Shown: positions 11,844 to 16,838 of the stretch, piece by piece
Layout of the letters: every line of letters starts with the position of its first letter
Numbering within the stretch: position 1 is the stretch's first letter
Assembly (NCBI RefSeq): GCF_016902445.1
Contig: NZ_JACSNX010000001.1
Coordinates: 1-64,000, forward strand
DNA: 64,000 nucleotides
Direction: 5' to 3'
Source of the DNA: Oscillibacter valericigenes
GTDB taxonomy: Bacteria; Bacillota; Clostridia; Oscillospirales; Oscillospiraceae
Made by a program: the position numbers and the translations under genes
The notes under the pieces: model-generated
Database searches by the model: none
What the model saw: only the letters and a program-made list of their open reading frames with translations
What the model was told of the DNA's origin: nothing

Positions 11844-12866
11844 ATGTACAGTTTTCGGAACGATTACAGCGAAGGCGCCCACTTCAAAGTCCTCCAGGCC
11901 CTGGCGGATACCAACGCCGTCCAGACCGTGGGGTATGGCCTGGACCCGTACTGCCGGACCGCGGCGGACACGGTCCGCCGCCTCTGCGCGGCCCCGGACG
12001 CAGCCGTCCACTTTCTGGTGGGCGGGACCCAGGTGAATCTGGTGGCCGTCGACGCATTCCTGCAGTCCTATGAGGCGGTGATCGCCGCCCAGACCGGCCA
12101 CGTCAGCACCCATGAGACCGGGGCCATCGAAGCCACCGGCCACAAGGTCTGTATCGCGGAGAGTCCCGACGGCAAGCTGACCCCGGCTCTGATTGAATCC
12201 GTTCTGGCAGGCCACAACGGCACGGAACACATGGTGCTGCCCCGACTGGTGTACATCTCCGACACCACCGAGATCGGAACCCTCTACACAAAGGCGGAGC
12301 TGACCGCCCTGCGGCAGTGCTGCGATGCCCACGGCCTGTTCCTCTATCTGGACGGCGCCCGGCTGGGCTCCGCCCTCACCTCCCCCGACAACGACCTGAC
12401 CCTGCCGGATCTGGCCGCCCTTACCGACGGCTTCACCATCGGCGGCACGAAAAACGGCGCCCTGTTCGGGGAGGCTCTGGTGCTCACCCACCCCCTGCCC
12501 CACTTCCGCTGGCACATGAAGCAGCGGGGCGCCGTGCTGGCCAAGGGACGGCTGCTGGGCGTCCAGTTCCAGGCACTGCTGGAGGACGGCCTGTACTTCG
12601 ACCTGGCCCGCCACGCCAACCAGCTGGCCTTCCGGCTCCGGGACGGCATAACTGCCCTGGGATACCCCTTCCCTGTGAGCTCCCCCTCCAACCAGCAGTT
12701 CCCGGTGCTGCCCAATGAGACGGTGGCAAAGCTCCAGGAGATGGGCTATGAATTTGAGACCGACCACCCGGTAGATGCCGGCCACACCTGCATCCGCCTA
12801 GTGACCAGCTGGGCCACGCCGGAGTCGGCGGTGGAGGACTTCCTCCGGGACCTGTCCAAGTGCTGA
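11844..12866 (+). CDS. Low-specificity L-threonine aldolase family PLP enzyme
   Basis: 340 aa, aspartate aminotransferase fold. Family members cleave L-threonine or L-allo-threonine to glycine and acetaldehyde. GHVSTHETGAIE (residues 85-96) supplies the His that stacks on PLP, LYLDGARLGSAL (167-178) the Asp and Arg contacts, and IGGTKNGALFGE (199-210) the Schiff-base lysine K203. The length agrees with the family. It is monocistronic: its own promoter is upstream and a strong terminator lies just after the stop. The ribosome site (AAAAAGG) is modest. A role in beta-hydroxy amino acid cleavage other than threonine cannot be excluded. Confidence 0.88.
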   Translation: MYSFRNDYSEGAHFKVLQALADTNAVQTVGYGLDPYCRTAADTVRRLCAAPDAAVHFLVGGTQVNLVAVDAFLQSYEAVIAAQTGHVSTHETGAIEATGHKVCIAESPDGKLTPALIESVLAGHNGTEHMVLPRLVYISDTTEIGTLYTKAELTALRQCCDAHGLFLYLDGARLGSALTSPDNDLTLPDLAALTDGFTIGGTKNGALFGEALVLTHPLPHFRWHMKQRGAVLAKGRLLGVQFQALLEDGLYFDLARHANQLAFRLRDGITALGYPFPVSSPSNQQFPVLPNETVAKLQEMGYEFETDHPVDAGHTCIRLVTSWATPESAVEDFLRDLSKC

Positions 12867-12872
12867 ATCCCC

Positions 12873-12901
12873 AAGGGACCGCCTGTCGGCGGTCCCTTTT
12901 T
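12873..12901 (+). terminator. Rho-independent terminator
   Basis: An 11-bp stem, 12873-12883 with 12888-12898, 4-base loop, then TTTTTG. It ends the threonine aldolase-like transcript. Confidence 0.9.
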
Positions 12902-12951
12902 GTGTGGCGCATCCCCATCTGCCGGCCCGTTTGCCCTGTCAGACCCTTTAT

Positions 12952-13022
12952 CGTACTTTTGTTCGATTTATACTTGACAGAAACATTTGTTCGAGTTACA
13001 ATACGATTAGAACATAAGTTCG
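12952..13022 (+). promoter_or_regulatory. SOS-type promoter with three LexA-like boxes
   Basis: TTGACA (12974-12979), 17-base spacer, TACAAT (12997-13002). Three matches to the Gram-positive LexA box CGAACATATGTTCG surround it: 13009-13022 (AGAACATAAGTTCG, 12 of 14, with intact GAAC-N4-GTTC), 12980-12993 (11 of 14, between -35 and -10) and 12952-12965 (11 of 14, upstream). Occupancy by LexA would block the promoter. Confidence 0.8.
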
Positions 13023-13039
13023 AACAAGGAGGGTTTTCC

Positions 13040-13168
13040 ATGAGCGGCTGGACTTTCTTTTTTATTTTGGTAGGCGTGGTCTTTCTGACCTCTCAGCTCT
13101 TCCGGGTCATCGACGCCATCGAGCGCCCTGCCCGGCGCCACCCCCGGCGGCGGGCTGCCCTCCGGTAA
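13040..13168 (+). CDS. Small membrane peptide, predicted SOS-induced
   Basis: 42 aa. One hydrophobic helix at about 4-20 (WTFFFILVGVVFLTSQLF) is followed by a basic tail rich in Arg (RRHPRRRAALR). A strong ribosome site (AAGGAGGG) sits 6 bases before the ATG. It is the first gene behind three LexA-like boxes and ends one base before the start of the radical SAM gene. In Bacillus, SOS genes include small membrane peptides that stop cell division (YneA); this one shows no LysM domain or sequence likeness that I can see, so the parallel is by context only. It could instead be a leader that couples translation to the next gene. Confidence 0.6.
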   Translation: MSGWTFFFILVGVVFLTSQLFRVIDAIERPARRHPRRRAALR

Positions 13169-13169
13169 G

Positions 13170-14435
13170 ATGGATGTTCTGGAGAAGCTCACCATCCTGA
13201 CGGACGCGGCCAAGTACGACGCGGCCTGCACCTCCAGCGGCGGGGACCGGAAGGCCAGGGCGGGATGGATCGGCAACACCACCTCCTCCATCGCCGGTTG
13301 CTGCCACTCCTTTTCCGCTGACGGGCGGTGCGTGACGCTTTTGAAGGTGCTGCTGACCAACCGGTGCGTGTACGACTGCAAATACTGCGTCAACCGCCGC
13401 AGCAACGAGACGAAGCGGGCCATGTTCACCCCGGAGGAGCTGGCGGATCTCACCATCCAGTTCTACCGCCGGAATTATATCGAGGGACTGTTCCTCTCCT
13501 CCGGCGTGTACCGCTCCCCGGACTACACCACGGAGCTGATGATCCGGGCGCTGCGCATCCTGCGGGAGCAGTACCGCTTCAACGGCTACATCCACGCCAA
13601 GGCCATCCCCGGCACGGCGCCGGAGCTGGTGGAGCAGCTGGGATTCCTGGCGGACCGGCTCAGCGTCAACATCGAGCTGCCGTCGGAGGCGGGCCTCCGG
13701 GCCCTGGCCCCGGACAAGACGAAGCAGGCCATCCTGGCCCCTATGGGCCAGATCCGAGTGCGGGGACAGCAGAGCCGGGAGGAGCTGGTAAAATACCGTC
13801 ACGCCCCCAGGTTCGCCCCCGCCGGCCAGAGCACCCAGCTGATCGTGGGCGCCACGGCGGACACGGACTTTCACATCCTACGGCTGACCCAGGGGCTGTA
13901 TGACCGCTACCGGCTCAAACGGGTGTTCTATTCCGCCTACGTGCCGGTGGTGGAGCACGCCCTGCTCCCCGCGAAGGACACAAAGCCGCCCCTGCTGCGG
14001 GAGCATCGGCTGTACCAGGCGGACTGGCTGCTGCGGTTTTACGGCTTCCGGGCGGAGGAGCTGCTGGATGCAAGCCACCCGGACTTCAACCCCCAGGTGG
14101 ACCCCAAGTGCAGCTGGGCCCTCCGGCACCTGGACTTCTTCCCGGTGGAGGTGAACCGGGCGGACTATGAGGCCCTGCTGCGGATCCCCGGCGTGGGGAT
14201 GGTCTCCGCCAAGCGCATCCTGGTGTCCCGCCGGACCCGGAAGCTGCGGATCGAGGACCTGCCCAAGCTGGGAGTGGTGATGAAGCGGGCCCAGTATTTT
14301 CTCACCGCCTCCGGCCGCATGGCGGAAGGCCTGCGGTTCACCCCGGACAGCCTGCTGCGGAACCTGATCGCGGCGGAGCGGCCTTCCCTGCCCCAGCCGG
14401 AGCTGGAGCAGCTGTCCCTGTTCGCCCCTGTGTGA
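13170..14435 (+). CDS. Putative DNA modification/repair radical SAM protein
   Basis: 421 aa. The [4Fe-4S]/SAM motif CxxxCxxC is at C66, C70, C73 within NRCVYDCKYCVNRR. A helix-hairpin-helix-like segment, GVGMVSAKR (about 340-348), suggests DNA binding. This matches the family described as a radical SAM protein paired with a uracil-DNA glycosylase-like or DUF4130 partner, and that partner follows 13 bases downstream. The chemistry is unknown. The ATG at 13170 lies directly after the stop of the 42-aa peptide. The LexA-like boxes upstream support a role in DNA damage. Confidence 0.85.
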   Translation: MDVLEKLTILTDAAKYDAACTSSGGDRKARAGWIGNTTSSIAGCCHSFSADGRCVTLLKVLLTNRCVYDCKYCVNRRSNETKRAMFTPEELADLTIQFYRRNYIEGLFLSSGVYRSPDYTTELMIRALRILREQYRFNGYIHAKAIPGTAPELVEQLGFLADRLSVNIELPSEAGLRALAPDKTKQAILAPMGQIRVRGQQSREELVKYRHAPRFAPAGQSTQLIVGATADTDFHILRLTQGLYDRYRLKRVFYSAYVPVVEHALLPAKDTKPPLLREHRLYQADWLLRFYGFRAEELLDASHPDFNPQVDPKCSWALRHLDFFPVEVNRADYEALLRIPGVGMVSAKRILVSRRTRKLRIEDLPKLGVVMKRAQYFLTASGRMAEGLRFTPDSLLRNLIAAERPSLPQPELEQLSLFAPV

Positions 14436-14448
14436 GGGAGGTCTCCCC

Positions 14449-15306
14449 ATGACCGAGATGATCTATGAATACGACGGCAGCTTCGAGGGGCTCCTCACCT
14501 GCGTCTTTGAGAGCTATGCTCAAAAGGAAGTCCTCACCGCGATCACCTGCGGTGAGGACATTCAATCCACATTGTTTCCCGTGCGGACAGTGCTGACGGA
14601 CCGGGACCACGCCGCCCGGGTGTACCGGAAGGTGGTCAAGCTGTCTCCGGAGGCGGCGGACCTGCTGCGCCGTGGTTTTCTCACCTGCCTGCCGGAGCGG
14701 GAGATCCACCTGTACCGGCTGGTGGTGAAGCTGCTGGAGGAGGGGCCCCGGTTCCTCCGGGACCTGTCCGACGAGACGCTGTATCCGGTCCTGCGGGCGG
14801 TGCGGCACCTGAACGGCGAGGTCCATCAGTACAAGGGCTTCGTCCGTTTCTCCGACCTGGGAGGCGTTCTGGGCGGCGAGATCGAGCCGAAAAACCGGGT
14901 GCTGCCCCTGCTGCGGCAGCACTTCTGCGCCCGGTACCGGAACGAGCGGTTCTTTCTCTACGACCGCACCCACCGGGAGGCGCTGTTCTACGTCGCGGGC
15001 CGCTCCGCCATCCGGCCCCTGGAGCAGTTCCAGATGGCGCCGCCGGATGAGGCGGAGGCCCGCTATCGCCTGTTGTGGAAGCGGTTCTACGACACCATCG
15101 CCATCCGGGAGCGGGAGAACCCCCGCTGCCGCATGACCCACATGCCCAAGCGGTACTGGAACACCATGACGGAGTTCCAGGGAGAGGACTCCTTCAAAGC
15201 GAGAGAGCGTCCCGCAGCCGTTTCAGGCCCCGGCGCTCCAGCCGGGATACCTGCACCTGGGACACGCCCAGGATCCGGGCGGTCTGCTCCTGGGTCAGCC
15301 CCTTGA
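14449..15306 (+). CDS. DUF4130 (TIGR03915-like) DNA metabolism protein
   Basis: 285 aa. The start YEYDGSFEGLLTCVFESY and the C-terminal region with PKRYWNTMTEF match the DUF4130 family, which is found beside the radical SAM protein encoded just upstream and in some genomes fused to a uracil-DNA glycosylase-like domain. No glycosylase domain is present here. The ribosome site GGGAGG precedes the ATG at 14449. The last 45 or so residues (Pro/Gly/Ala-rich) lie beyond the usual end and overlap the 3' end of sigF on the other strand by 113 bases. This tail is probably read-through into antisense sequence rather than a folded domain. Confidence 0.82.
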   Translation: MTEMIYEYDGSFEGLLTCVFESYAQKEVLTAITCGEDIQSTLFPVRTVLTDRDHAARVYRKVVKLSPEAADLLRRGFLTCLPEREIHLYRLVVKLLEEGPRFLRDLSDETLYPVLRAVRHLNGEVHQYKGFVRFSDLGGVLGGEIEPKNRVLPLLRQHFCARYRNERFFLYDRTHREALFYVAGRSAIRPLEQFQMAPPDEAEARYRLLWKRFYDTIAIRERENPRCRMTHMPKRYWNTMTEFQGEDSFKARERPAAVSGPGAPAGIPAPGTRPGSGRSAPGSAP

Positions 15307-15898
15307 AGTACCGCAGGAGAATGGCCATCCGCTCCTTCTCCGGCAGCTGATCGATGGACTCCCGCAGGGCGATCCGCTCCACCATGCCCTCCTCCGGGGC
15401 CTCCGTGCCCAGCATGCCCTCCAGGGTGAGGCCATCGGCGGTCTCCCTCTGGAGAGACTCCGGCGTGTCCGTGGCGATCTCCACCTGGGCGATCTCCTCC
15501 GGCGTCAGGCCGGAGGCCTCCGACAGCTCGGAGAGCACCGGCTCCCGGCCCAGTGTCTGCCGCAGCCGCTCCCGAATGGTGTAAAGGGACTGCGCTTGCT
15601 CCCGCATGGTGCGCCCCACTTTCACCGCGCCGTCGTCCCGGAGGAAGCGGCGGATCTCCCCGGCGATCTTGGGCACTGCGTAGGTGGAGAAGCAGGTGCC
15701 GTAGTCGAAGTCGAACCCCTGCACCGCCTTCAGAAAGCCCAGGCACCCCAGCTGGTACAGGTCCTCCGGGTCCACGCCCCGGCCGTAGTAGCGCCGCACC
15801 ACGCTCCAAATCAGACCGTTGTTTTCGATCACCGCCCGCTCGCAGGCATCTCGGTCCCCCTCCTGGGCCGCCCGCAGCAGCTCCAGCGTGGCGCTCAT
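15194..15898 (-). CDS. sigF: RNA polymerase sigma-F factor, forespore-specific
   Basis: 234 aa sigma-70 family. Region 2 contains PEDLYQLGCLGFLKAVQGFDF and FSTYAVPKIAGEIRRFLRD; region 4 has the helix-turn-helix LTQEQTARILGVSQVQVSRLERR. The position after spoIIAA and spoIIAB identifies it as sigma-F rather than sigma-G. It directs early forespore transcription and is held inactive by SpoIIAB. The ATG overlaps the end of spoIIAB by 4 bases. Its 3' end overlaps the convergent DUF4130 gene by 113 bases, and no terminator is visible between them. Confidence 0.94.
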   Translation of the reverse strand: MSATLELLRAAQEGDRDACERAVIENNGLIWSVVRRYYGRGVDPEDLYQLGCLGFLKAVQGFDFDYGTCFSTYAVPKIAGEIRRFLRDDGAVKVGRTMREQAQSLYTIRERLRQTLGREPVLSELSEASGLTPEEIAQVEIATDTPESLQRETADGLTLEGMLGTEAPEEGMVERIALRESIDQLPEKERMAILLRYFKGLTQEQTARILGVSQVQVSRLERRGLKRLRDALSL

Positions 15899-16344
15899 GT
15901 CCCGCTCTTCAGCCGGGGTGCCAGCCGCTTGCGCATCACCACGGTAGTGCCCCGACCCGGCGTGGAGCGGACCACCAGCCTGTCCATAAAGCTCTCCATG
16001 ATGGTGAAGCCCATTCCGCTGCGCTCCTCCCCGCCGGTGGTGAACATGGGCTGGCGGGCCTTCTCCACATCGGGAATGCCCCGGCCGTGGTCCCGCACCG
16101 TCACCTCCAGCACCTGGTCCGGGCAGATCCGGACCTTCACCACCACCTGACCGATGGAGTCCGGATAGGCGTGGACGATGGCGTTGGTCACCGCCTCGCT
16201 GACGGCGGTCTTGATGTCCTCCAGCTCGTTGAGGGTGGGGTCCATCTGGGCGGCGAAGCAGGACACCGCCGCCCGGGCGAACCCCTCGTTGCTGCTGCGG
16301 CTGGGAAATGCCAGCGTGACTTCGTTGTTGGCTTTGGTCTTCAT
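15895..16344 (-). CDS. spoIIAB: Anti-sigma F factor and serine kinase SpoIIAB
   Basis: 149 aa GHKL-family ATPase. N-box EDIKTAVSEAVTNAIVHAY, G1 box VRDHGRGIPD and G2 box GMGFTIMESFMD are all present. It binds sigma-F and phosphorylates SpoIIAA, so release of sigma-F depends on dephosphorylated SpoIIAA in the forespore. The length matches the family. It lies 18 bases after spoIIAA and overlaps sigF by 4 bases. Confidence 0.95.
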   Translation of the reverse strand: MKTKANNEVTLAFPSRSSNEGFARAAVSCFAAQMDPTLNELEDIKTAVSEAVTNAIVHAYPDSIGQVVVKVRICPDQVLEVTVRDHGRGIPDVEKARQPMFTTGGEERSGMGFTIMESFMDRLVVRSTPGRGTTVVMRKRLAPRLKSGT

Positions 16345-16362
16345 GGTATGTACTCCCCCTTT

Positions 16363-16668
16363 TTATCGTATCGTCACCAGCCGGCCGATGCCGGCGGCGT
16401 CCAGGACCCGCCGGGCCTGCTGGGGCACGTTCCGCACCAGCAGGCTGCCGTCCAGCAGCTGCATCCGCTGCTGGGCCCGCAGGATCAGCGCGATGCCGGA
16501 GCTGTCCATGAACGTCACGCCGGAAAAGTCCAGCACCAGCTTCTTCGGCAGCGCCGCGTCAATGGCCAGCTCCAGCTCCCGGAGGGCGTCCCGGGCCCCG
16601 TGGTGGTCCAGCTCCCCCTTCAGTTCCAGCAGCAGATTCCGGTCTGCGCTTGTGGCTTCGATCTCCAT
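16363..16668 (-). CDS. spoIIAA: Anti-sigma F factor antagonist SpoIIAA
   Basis: 101 aa STAS-domain protein. The phosphorylation motif FMDSSGIAL (about 53-61) holds the serine that SpoIIAB phosphorylates. When dephosphorylated it binds SpoIIAB and frees sigma-F. The start is the ATG at 16668, with AAGGGG 5-10 bases upstream; an earlier in-frame start would add about 21 residues not seen in the family. It is the first gene of spoIIA. A minus-strand TATAAT-like element is near 16730, but I could not assign a sigma-H promoter or Spo0A boxes. Confidence 0.93.
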   Translation of the reverse strand: MEIEATSADRNLLLELKGELDHHGARDALRELELAIDAALPKKLVLDFSGVTFMDSSGIALILRAQQRMQLLDGSLLVRNVPQQARRVLDAAGIGRLVTIR

Positions 16669-16838
16669 TCGATCCCCTTCTTCCTTGTCGTTTGTGTACC
16701 AAGATACAGGGTACCCCGTTTTTCCTCCCATTATAAGGAAACGGGCCTTTCTTTTTTGTCGGAATCACGCCTCACTGCAAAATGTTCCGTTTCCACGCTT
16801 GCAGCAGCGTCTGCGGCGGGGTATCATGGAGGTATCTC

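Follow-up and report, generated by a model that had tools for sequence, protein, structure and literature searches.

A putative LexA-controlled operon joining a membrane peptide to a radical SAM-DUF4130 gene pair in Oscillibacter valericigenes

The operon CAC3343-CAC3344 of Clostridium acetobutylicum has been assigned to a predicted LexA regulon by footprint analysis and expression data (PMC3828012), and SOS regulation of a COG1573-COG4277 operon was inferred in Bacteroidetes by comparative genomics, with Verrucomicrobia and Alphaproteobacteria cited as well (PMC8565304). The present analysis concerns a locus of Oscillibacter valericigenes (Oscillospiraceae) in the first 64,000 nucleotides (nt) of contig NZ_JACSNX010000001.1 (assembly GCF_016902445.1), a stretch hereafter called the window. 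The locus consists of a promoter with three LexA-like operators followed by genes for a small membrane peptide, a radical SAM protein (TIGR03916) and a DUF4130 protein (TIGR03915). COG4277 presumably corresponds to the TIGR03916 radical SAM family, and CAC3344 is presumably a TIGR03915 protein. That LexA controls the radical SAM-DUF4130 pair has been predicted before, for C. acetobutylicum (PMC3828012) and, for a related operon with a uracil-DNA glycosylase (UDG), in Bacteroidetes (PMC8565304). The SOS-linked pair is the already known core of the finding, and the peptide and the three-operator promoter are, within the literature searched, its new part.

The accessible passages on CAC3343-CAC3344 mention neither a leading peptide nor a triple operator (PMC3828012). 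The COG1573-COG4277 operon resembles the locus in that two genes stand behind LexA-type motifs, and it includes a UDG superfamily protein; it differs in the LexA motifs themselves and, in the passages available, in having no peptide mentioned, and the window protein has no UDG domain (PMC8565304). Two alphaproteobacterial plasmids, of Agrobacterium and Leisingera, likewise join the TIGR03916 radical SAM family to a TIGR03915 domain, the radical SAM gene being followed by a gene that fuses DUF4130 with a uracil-DNA-binding domain of UdgX type. In the window protein, DUF4130/TIGR03915 stands without the UdgX fusion of TIGR03914 or any UDG domain. A UDG domain is present in loci L177 and L178.

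The locus in O. valericigenes is laid out as follows.

12952..12965, + strand: LexA-like operator 1, CGTACTTTTGTTCG, above the -35 element (11 of 14 positions)
12974..12979, + strand: -35 element TTGACA (sequence reading)
12980..12993, + strand: LexA-like operator 2, GAAACATTTGTTCG, with the core AACATTTGTTCG, occupying the spacer between -35 and -10 (11 of 14 positions)
12997..13002, + strand: -10 element TACAAT, at a 17-nt spacer from -35 (sequence reading)
13009..13022, + strand: LexA-like operator 3, AGAACATAAGTTCG, just 3' of -10 and spanning the expected transcription start (12 of 14 positions)
13026..13033, + strand: Shine-Dalgarno-like sequence AAGGAGGG for the peptide gene (sequence reading)
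13040..13168, + strand: peptide gene, 42 amino acids
13170..14435, + strand: radical SAM gene, 421 amino acids, TIGR03916 (profile match)
14449..15306, + strand: DUF4130 gene, 285 amino acids, TIGR03915 (profile match)

The three boxes with their scores, the TTGACA-17-TACAAT promoter amid them and the three closely spaced genes behind it had been described in a first-pass annotation of the sequence, and all were found where described, with intergenic gaps of 1 nt (peptide to radical SAM) and 13 nt (radical SAM to DUF4130). With up to three mismatches allowed, the box pattern has 5 matches in the window against 1.00 expected (standard deviation 1.10), a number reached by 1 of 100 shuffled sequences, and the 71 bases from operator 1 to operator 3 hold three of the five. 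Over the whole genome this loose pattern is matched 67 times per strand, its reversed control 31 times. Because matches are this numerous, a single box at the loose threshold carries little weight, and the case for LexA rests on the clustering of the boxes, on their likeness to the boxes of recA, uvrB and lexA and on their conservation rather than on pattern counts.

The genome has one LexA and one recA above the family cut-offs. The lexA gene has a box, GGAACAAATGTTTG, that ends 58 nt ahead of the LexA match, and the box CGAACAAATGTTTG precedes the gene run that includes recA. The 2.84-Mb assembly has exactly three copies of the 12-mer AACATTTGTTCG, the core of operator 2: one in operator 2, one ahead of a gene identified by Pfam as uvrB and one in the box of the recA operon. 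Its reversed control has no copy. The operators at the promoter thus match the boxes of the genome's own recA, uvrB and lexA. Among nine other places with loose LexA-like sites that were inspected (with Pfam used for the next gene in four), uvrB was convincing and a UvrD-type helicase 357 nt away was possible; the remaining seven sites lay within open reading frames (ORFs) or ahead of genes without an evident SOS link. The argument being made in silico, with boxes that agree with the motif at 8 or 9 of its 10 fixed positions, a different repressor with a similar palindrome could be proposed, but the sharing of the core 12-mer with uvrB and the recA operon and with nothing else in the assembly makes this most improbable. 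The putative LexA control of the operon can be stated with high confidence. The recA gene run itself (locus L100, C23 of genome G000) reads DUF1385-prmC-recA-recX behind one LexA-like box, where DUF1385 was assigned by Pfam and prmC and recX by eye.

Conservation of the operators was examined upstream of orthologues, a check that had been set beforehand. The family set comprised 80 named orthologue loci out of 291 confirmed, plus the window, giving 81; the phylum set comprised 66 loci from a profile search with the radical SAM family. One family locus and two phylum loci were dropped for a short upstream region or for N, leaving 80 and 64. To count as a site, a sequence in the 300 nt upstream had to agree with CGAACNNNNGTTCG at 8 or more of its 10 fixed positions. 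At least one site was found in 66 of the 80 Oscillospiraceae loci (window included), at least two in 63 and at least three in 36, whereas the upstream regions of other ORFs of the same loci gave 15, 1 and 0 of 285, and shuffled sequences gave 12.2 loci with a site. Across the phylum, a site within 150 nt upstream was present in 42/64 loci against 2/60 controls (1.1 in shuffles). The corresponding Fisher p values, 1e-43 and 1e-53 for at least one and at least two sites in the family and 3e-14 for the phylum, are overstated owing to the kinship of the loci. An even draw from the family covered 60 upstream regions from 65 above-cut-off matches (G000, G408, G365, G429, G333 and partial matches left out); 44 of the 60 contain a site no more than 350 nt upstream, in a draw without a control of its own.

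The operators are thus kept upstream of orthologues beyond chance. Together with the LexA in the genome and the 12-mer that operator 2 has in common with uvrB and the recA operon, this supports, at the level of sequence, the earlier proposal that the pair is a DNA-damage-inducible system of LexA type. The loci without a site, 14 of 80 in the family and 22 of 64 in the phylum, weigh against it; 13 of these 14 family loci are without the peptide and 5 are without a DUF4130 match. A role of the pair in DNA modification or defence rather than repair is very unlikely, as damage-type operators are common ahead of the radical SAM gene across the phylum and the three proteins had no match among the PADLOC models.

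Some loci depart from the common pattern. In L064, L067, L068, L069 and L070 the sites near the radical SAM gene have the form CGAACGATCGTTAG or CTAACGATCGTTCG, perhaps a LexA motif that has shifted in this group. The radical SAM genes of L049, L050, L052, L053 and L055 have no downstream DUF4130 match, operator or peptide; L052 and L053 have an upstream ORF that by eye is dUTPase-like, and L050 shares the bin label E0_RM__bin177 with L044, so at least one genome bin has both types. Five DUF4130 genes distant from a radical SAM gene were examined with the 8/10 rule, the gene start being placed by motif in three of them. Two of them have a site that is a poor palindrome, some 45 nt ahead of the family match in L289 and some 120 nt ahead of the gene in L290, and L291, L292 and L293 have none.

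Between the operators and the radical SAM gene, 58 of the 81 loci have a conserved ORF corresponding to the peptide, a divergent subfamily included. This count comes from a regular-expression search corrected by eye (a false positive, L055, was removed and L065, which had been missed, was added), and for some loci that search gave a later in-frame start than an earlier reading of the ORF. By hydropathy, with no topology program, the peptide has one hydrophobic span and a basic C-terminal tail, and its consensus runs from approximately MTGWTFFF through the span to QLFRxIDxIERP and the tail. In 50 loci, the divergent subfamily left out, the ratio of nonsynonymous to synonymous changes (pN/pS) is 0.31 in frame, whereas the two other frames give 0.95 and 1.94; variation is greatest at the third codon position. 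The peptide is a real gene under purifying selection.

In 57 of the 58 peptide loci the operators lie on the promoter side of the peptide gene, the other (L022) having no site. Of the 23 loci without the peptide, ten carry a site near the radical SAM gene (four of them with another just past the -130 divide), 13 have none and no locus has distal sites only. This placement puts the peptide gene inside the operon, behind the switch and ahead of the pair. The promoter has an almost fixed register, sites being counted here from 7/10 and thus more loosely than in the conservation counts (8/10). A -35/-10 pair with a score of 10/12 or more is present in 57 of the 58 peptide loci, at a spacing of 17 in 56 of these 57, and each of the 57 has operators in the spacer as well as at or past the -10 element. 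A site above -35, like operator 1, is found in 36 of 58.

A protein search with the peptide gave 111 relatives at an E value of at most 0.01, none of which has a precomputed Pfam domain, and the peptide itself has no match in Pfam or NCBIfam. In 200 genomes of the family there were seven matches in six genomes, the window's own included; the best match stands directly upstream of the radical SAM gene in all six, and the seventh, a weak one, is elsewhere. The earlier suggestion that the small peptide is part of the system is borne out by this linkage, by its presence in most of the orthologue loci and by the selection on its reading frame. In the even draw, an ORF with a membrane span occupies the peptide position in 9 of 60 loci, so the peptide is confined to part of the family. 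Pusillibacter faecalis has the same gene order, with the gene at the peptide position annotated as a hypothetical protein (WP_256315625.1). A longer form with a Trp-rich C-terminal end, whose gene overlaps the first 22 nt of the radical SAM gene, is found in 13 of the 58 loci (L020, L032-L034, L036, L038-L041, L045, L047, L048 and L057). No description of the peptide was met in the titles and abstract openings of the literature searched, a search in which a nameless peptide cannot be sought by name and which most subscription papers lie outside.

A widespread SOS mechanism has been described in which small membrane proteins block late steps of division (PMC13396833), and for that reason delay of division is the first choice for the function of the peptide, although a tentative one. 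The peptide is like YneA, SidA and SosA in its SOS-type control and in being a small integral membrane protein; it is unlike YneA, which has an extracellular LysM domain (PMC13396833), in that no domain family matches its 42 residues. The pattern expected of this class, a LexA-type promoter ahead of a short single-span protein, is present. The peptide also differs in sharing an operon with repair genes and in its basic tail, which by the positive-inside rule is expected in the cytoplasm; its part in division is proposed here by analogy.

Two other functions were considered. TisB and DinQ are LexA-controlled membrane toxins, and a peptide of 42 amino acids with a single hydrophobic span, a basic tail and a LexA-type promoter could be of the same kind, lowering membrane energy instead of blocking division, with LexA control and the repair pair as before. 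Type I toxins are typically free-standing, whereas the peptide is found almost only beside the pair, and no Rfam family matched in 12700-15500, where antisense RNA was not specifically sought; a toxin is therefore unlikely. The linkage to the radical SAM gene would also fit a peptide that anchors the radical SAM and DUF4130 proteins to the membrane or regulates them, for example as a tether near the replication or division machinery, and the 22-nt overlap of the longer form suggests coupled translation. The rarity of the peptide in the family draw means that the pair does not need it, and this function is rather unlikely. Delay of division remains the preferred reading for the peptide.

The two larger proteins score above the curated cut-offs of their families. 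The radical SAM protein scores 646.2 bits with TIGR03916 (cut-off 343.5). Its CX3CX2C motif (C66, C70 and C73) is present in 70 of 70 aligned sequences, and three further cysteines, C20, C45 and C54, are near-invariant. The C-terminal stretch matches helix-hairpin-helix profiles weakly, and in a sequence search of solved structures RuvA (E 0.0012) and a ComEA-like protein (E 0.0051) matched the same part, weakly and over part of their length. The predicted model of the protein is poor (pLDDT 64.2). SplB is a radical SAM enzyme of DNA repair, but the window protein scores in its own family, and no SplB model was among the matches shown in general profile scans, in which no SplB profile was tested. 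The DUF4130 protein scores 216.2 bits with TIGR03915 (cut-off 112.25) and 153.8 with PF13566 (cut-off 27), the family domain covering residues 6-243 and being followed by a tail. When 299 genomes of the phylum were searched, 64 of the 65 with an above-cut-off radical SAM protein also held DUF4130, against 14.6 expected, in agreement with the statement of the first-pass annotation that the two families occur together. Caulobacter vibrioides/crescentus is a further TIGR03916 carrier, the species being a match in the control lists.

A published figure legend links DUF4130 with SplB-like radical SAM photolyases and UDGs (PMC3765255), and no other paper dealing with DUF4130 by name was found in the literature searched. 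In Streptomyces venezuelae, vnz_31145 is listed as a radical SAM protein with a LexA site (PMC9380542), and in Acinetobacter Tol 5 a gene bearing the family name used for the pair is reported to rise in expression at 8% relative humidity (PMC13130816). The terms looked for were all absent from a paper on the SOS meta-regulon of the gut (PMC3998124).

The predicted fold of the DUF4130 protein may resemble that of DHH-DHHA1 (RecJ/Cdc45) proteins. A relation to the DHH-DHHA1 phosphoesterases (RecJ, NrnA, Cdc45) at the level of sequence profiles found no support: hhalign probabilities for 13 DHHA1-family proteins of relatives stayed under 1%, and neither DHH nor DHHA1 is among the Pfam families given for 31 members. 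The idea is kept as a likeness of fold alone. Sequence searches for DUF4130 relatives among solved structures gave a best E value of 0.17 and, in another search, of 0.004 to ribosomal L30, which was not believed.

At its downstream end the DUF4130 ORF overlaps, over its last 113 bases, a convergent sigma-factor gene (15194-15898, - strand), and the same overlap is annotated in P. faecalis. By their STAS, ATPase and sigma-70 domains, the convergent genes at 15194-16731 look like a sporulation-type spoIIAA-spoIIAB-sigF run.

The locus is probably a LexA-controlled repair operon made up of the peptide, the radical SAM protein and the DUF4130 protein. From the arrangement of the promoter we infer that LexA, bound to three operators from above the -35 element to the transcription start, would keep the operon silent, and that DNA damage would lead to LexA cleavage and turn the three genes on together. 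The radical SAM and DUF4130 proteins would act as one DNA-repair unit, in which the helix-hairpin-helix-like end may put the enzyme on damaged DNA, the DUF4130 protein, with its predicted DHH-DHHA1/RecJ-Cdc45-like fold but without the sequence motifs of those proteins, may present or hold a DNA strand, and radical chemistry may reverse or convert a base lesion, possibly of a kind connected with uracil or abasic sites. The peptide at the head of the operon would enter the membrane and, on the preferred reading, delay division during repair. More speculatively, and with a low probability, the peptide would be the founder, in Oscillospiraceae, of a new line of SOS checkpoint peptides, with repair and division arrest encoded on one transcript, and DUF4130 would be a minimal RecJ/Cdc45-like (DHH-DHHA1) fold without a metal site, serving to hold the DNA for a radical SAM enzyme that repairs lesions and has a second iron-sulphur site (C20, C45 and C54).

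TIGR03916-TIGR03915 is a widespread pair of undescribed chemistry, the radical SAM member being above cut-off in 65 of the 299 genomes of the phylum. The LexA-type operators ahead of the pair in much of the phylum indicate when it should act, and in this family of gut bacteria the linked peptide is a candidate checkpoint protein of the SOS response.
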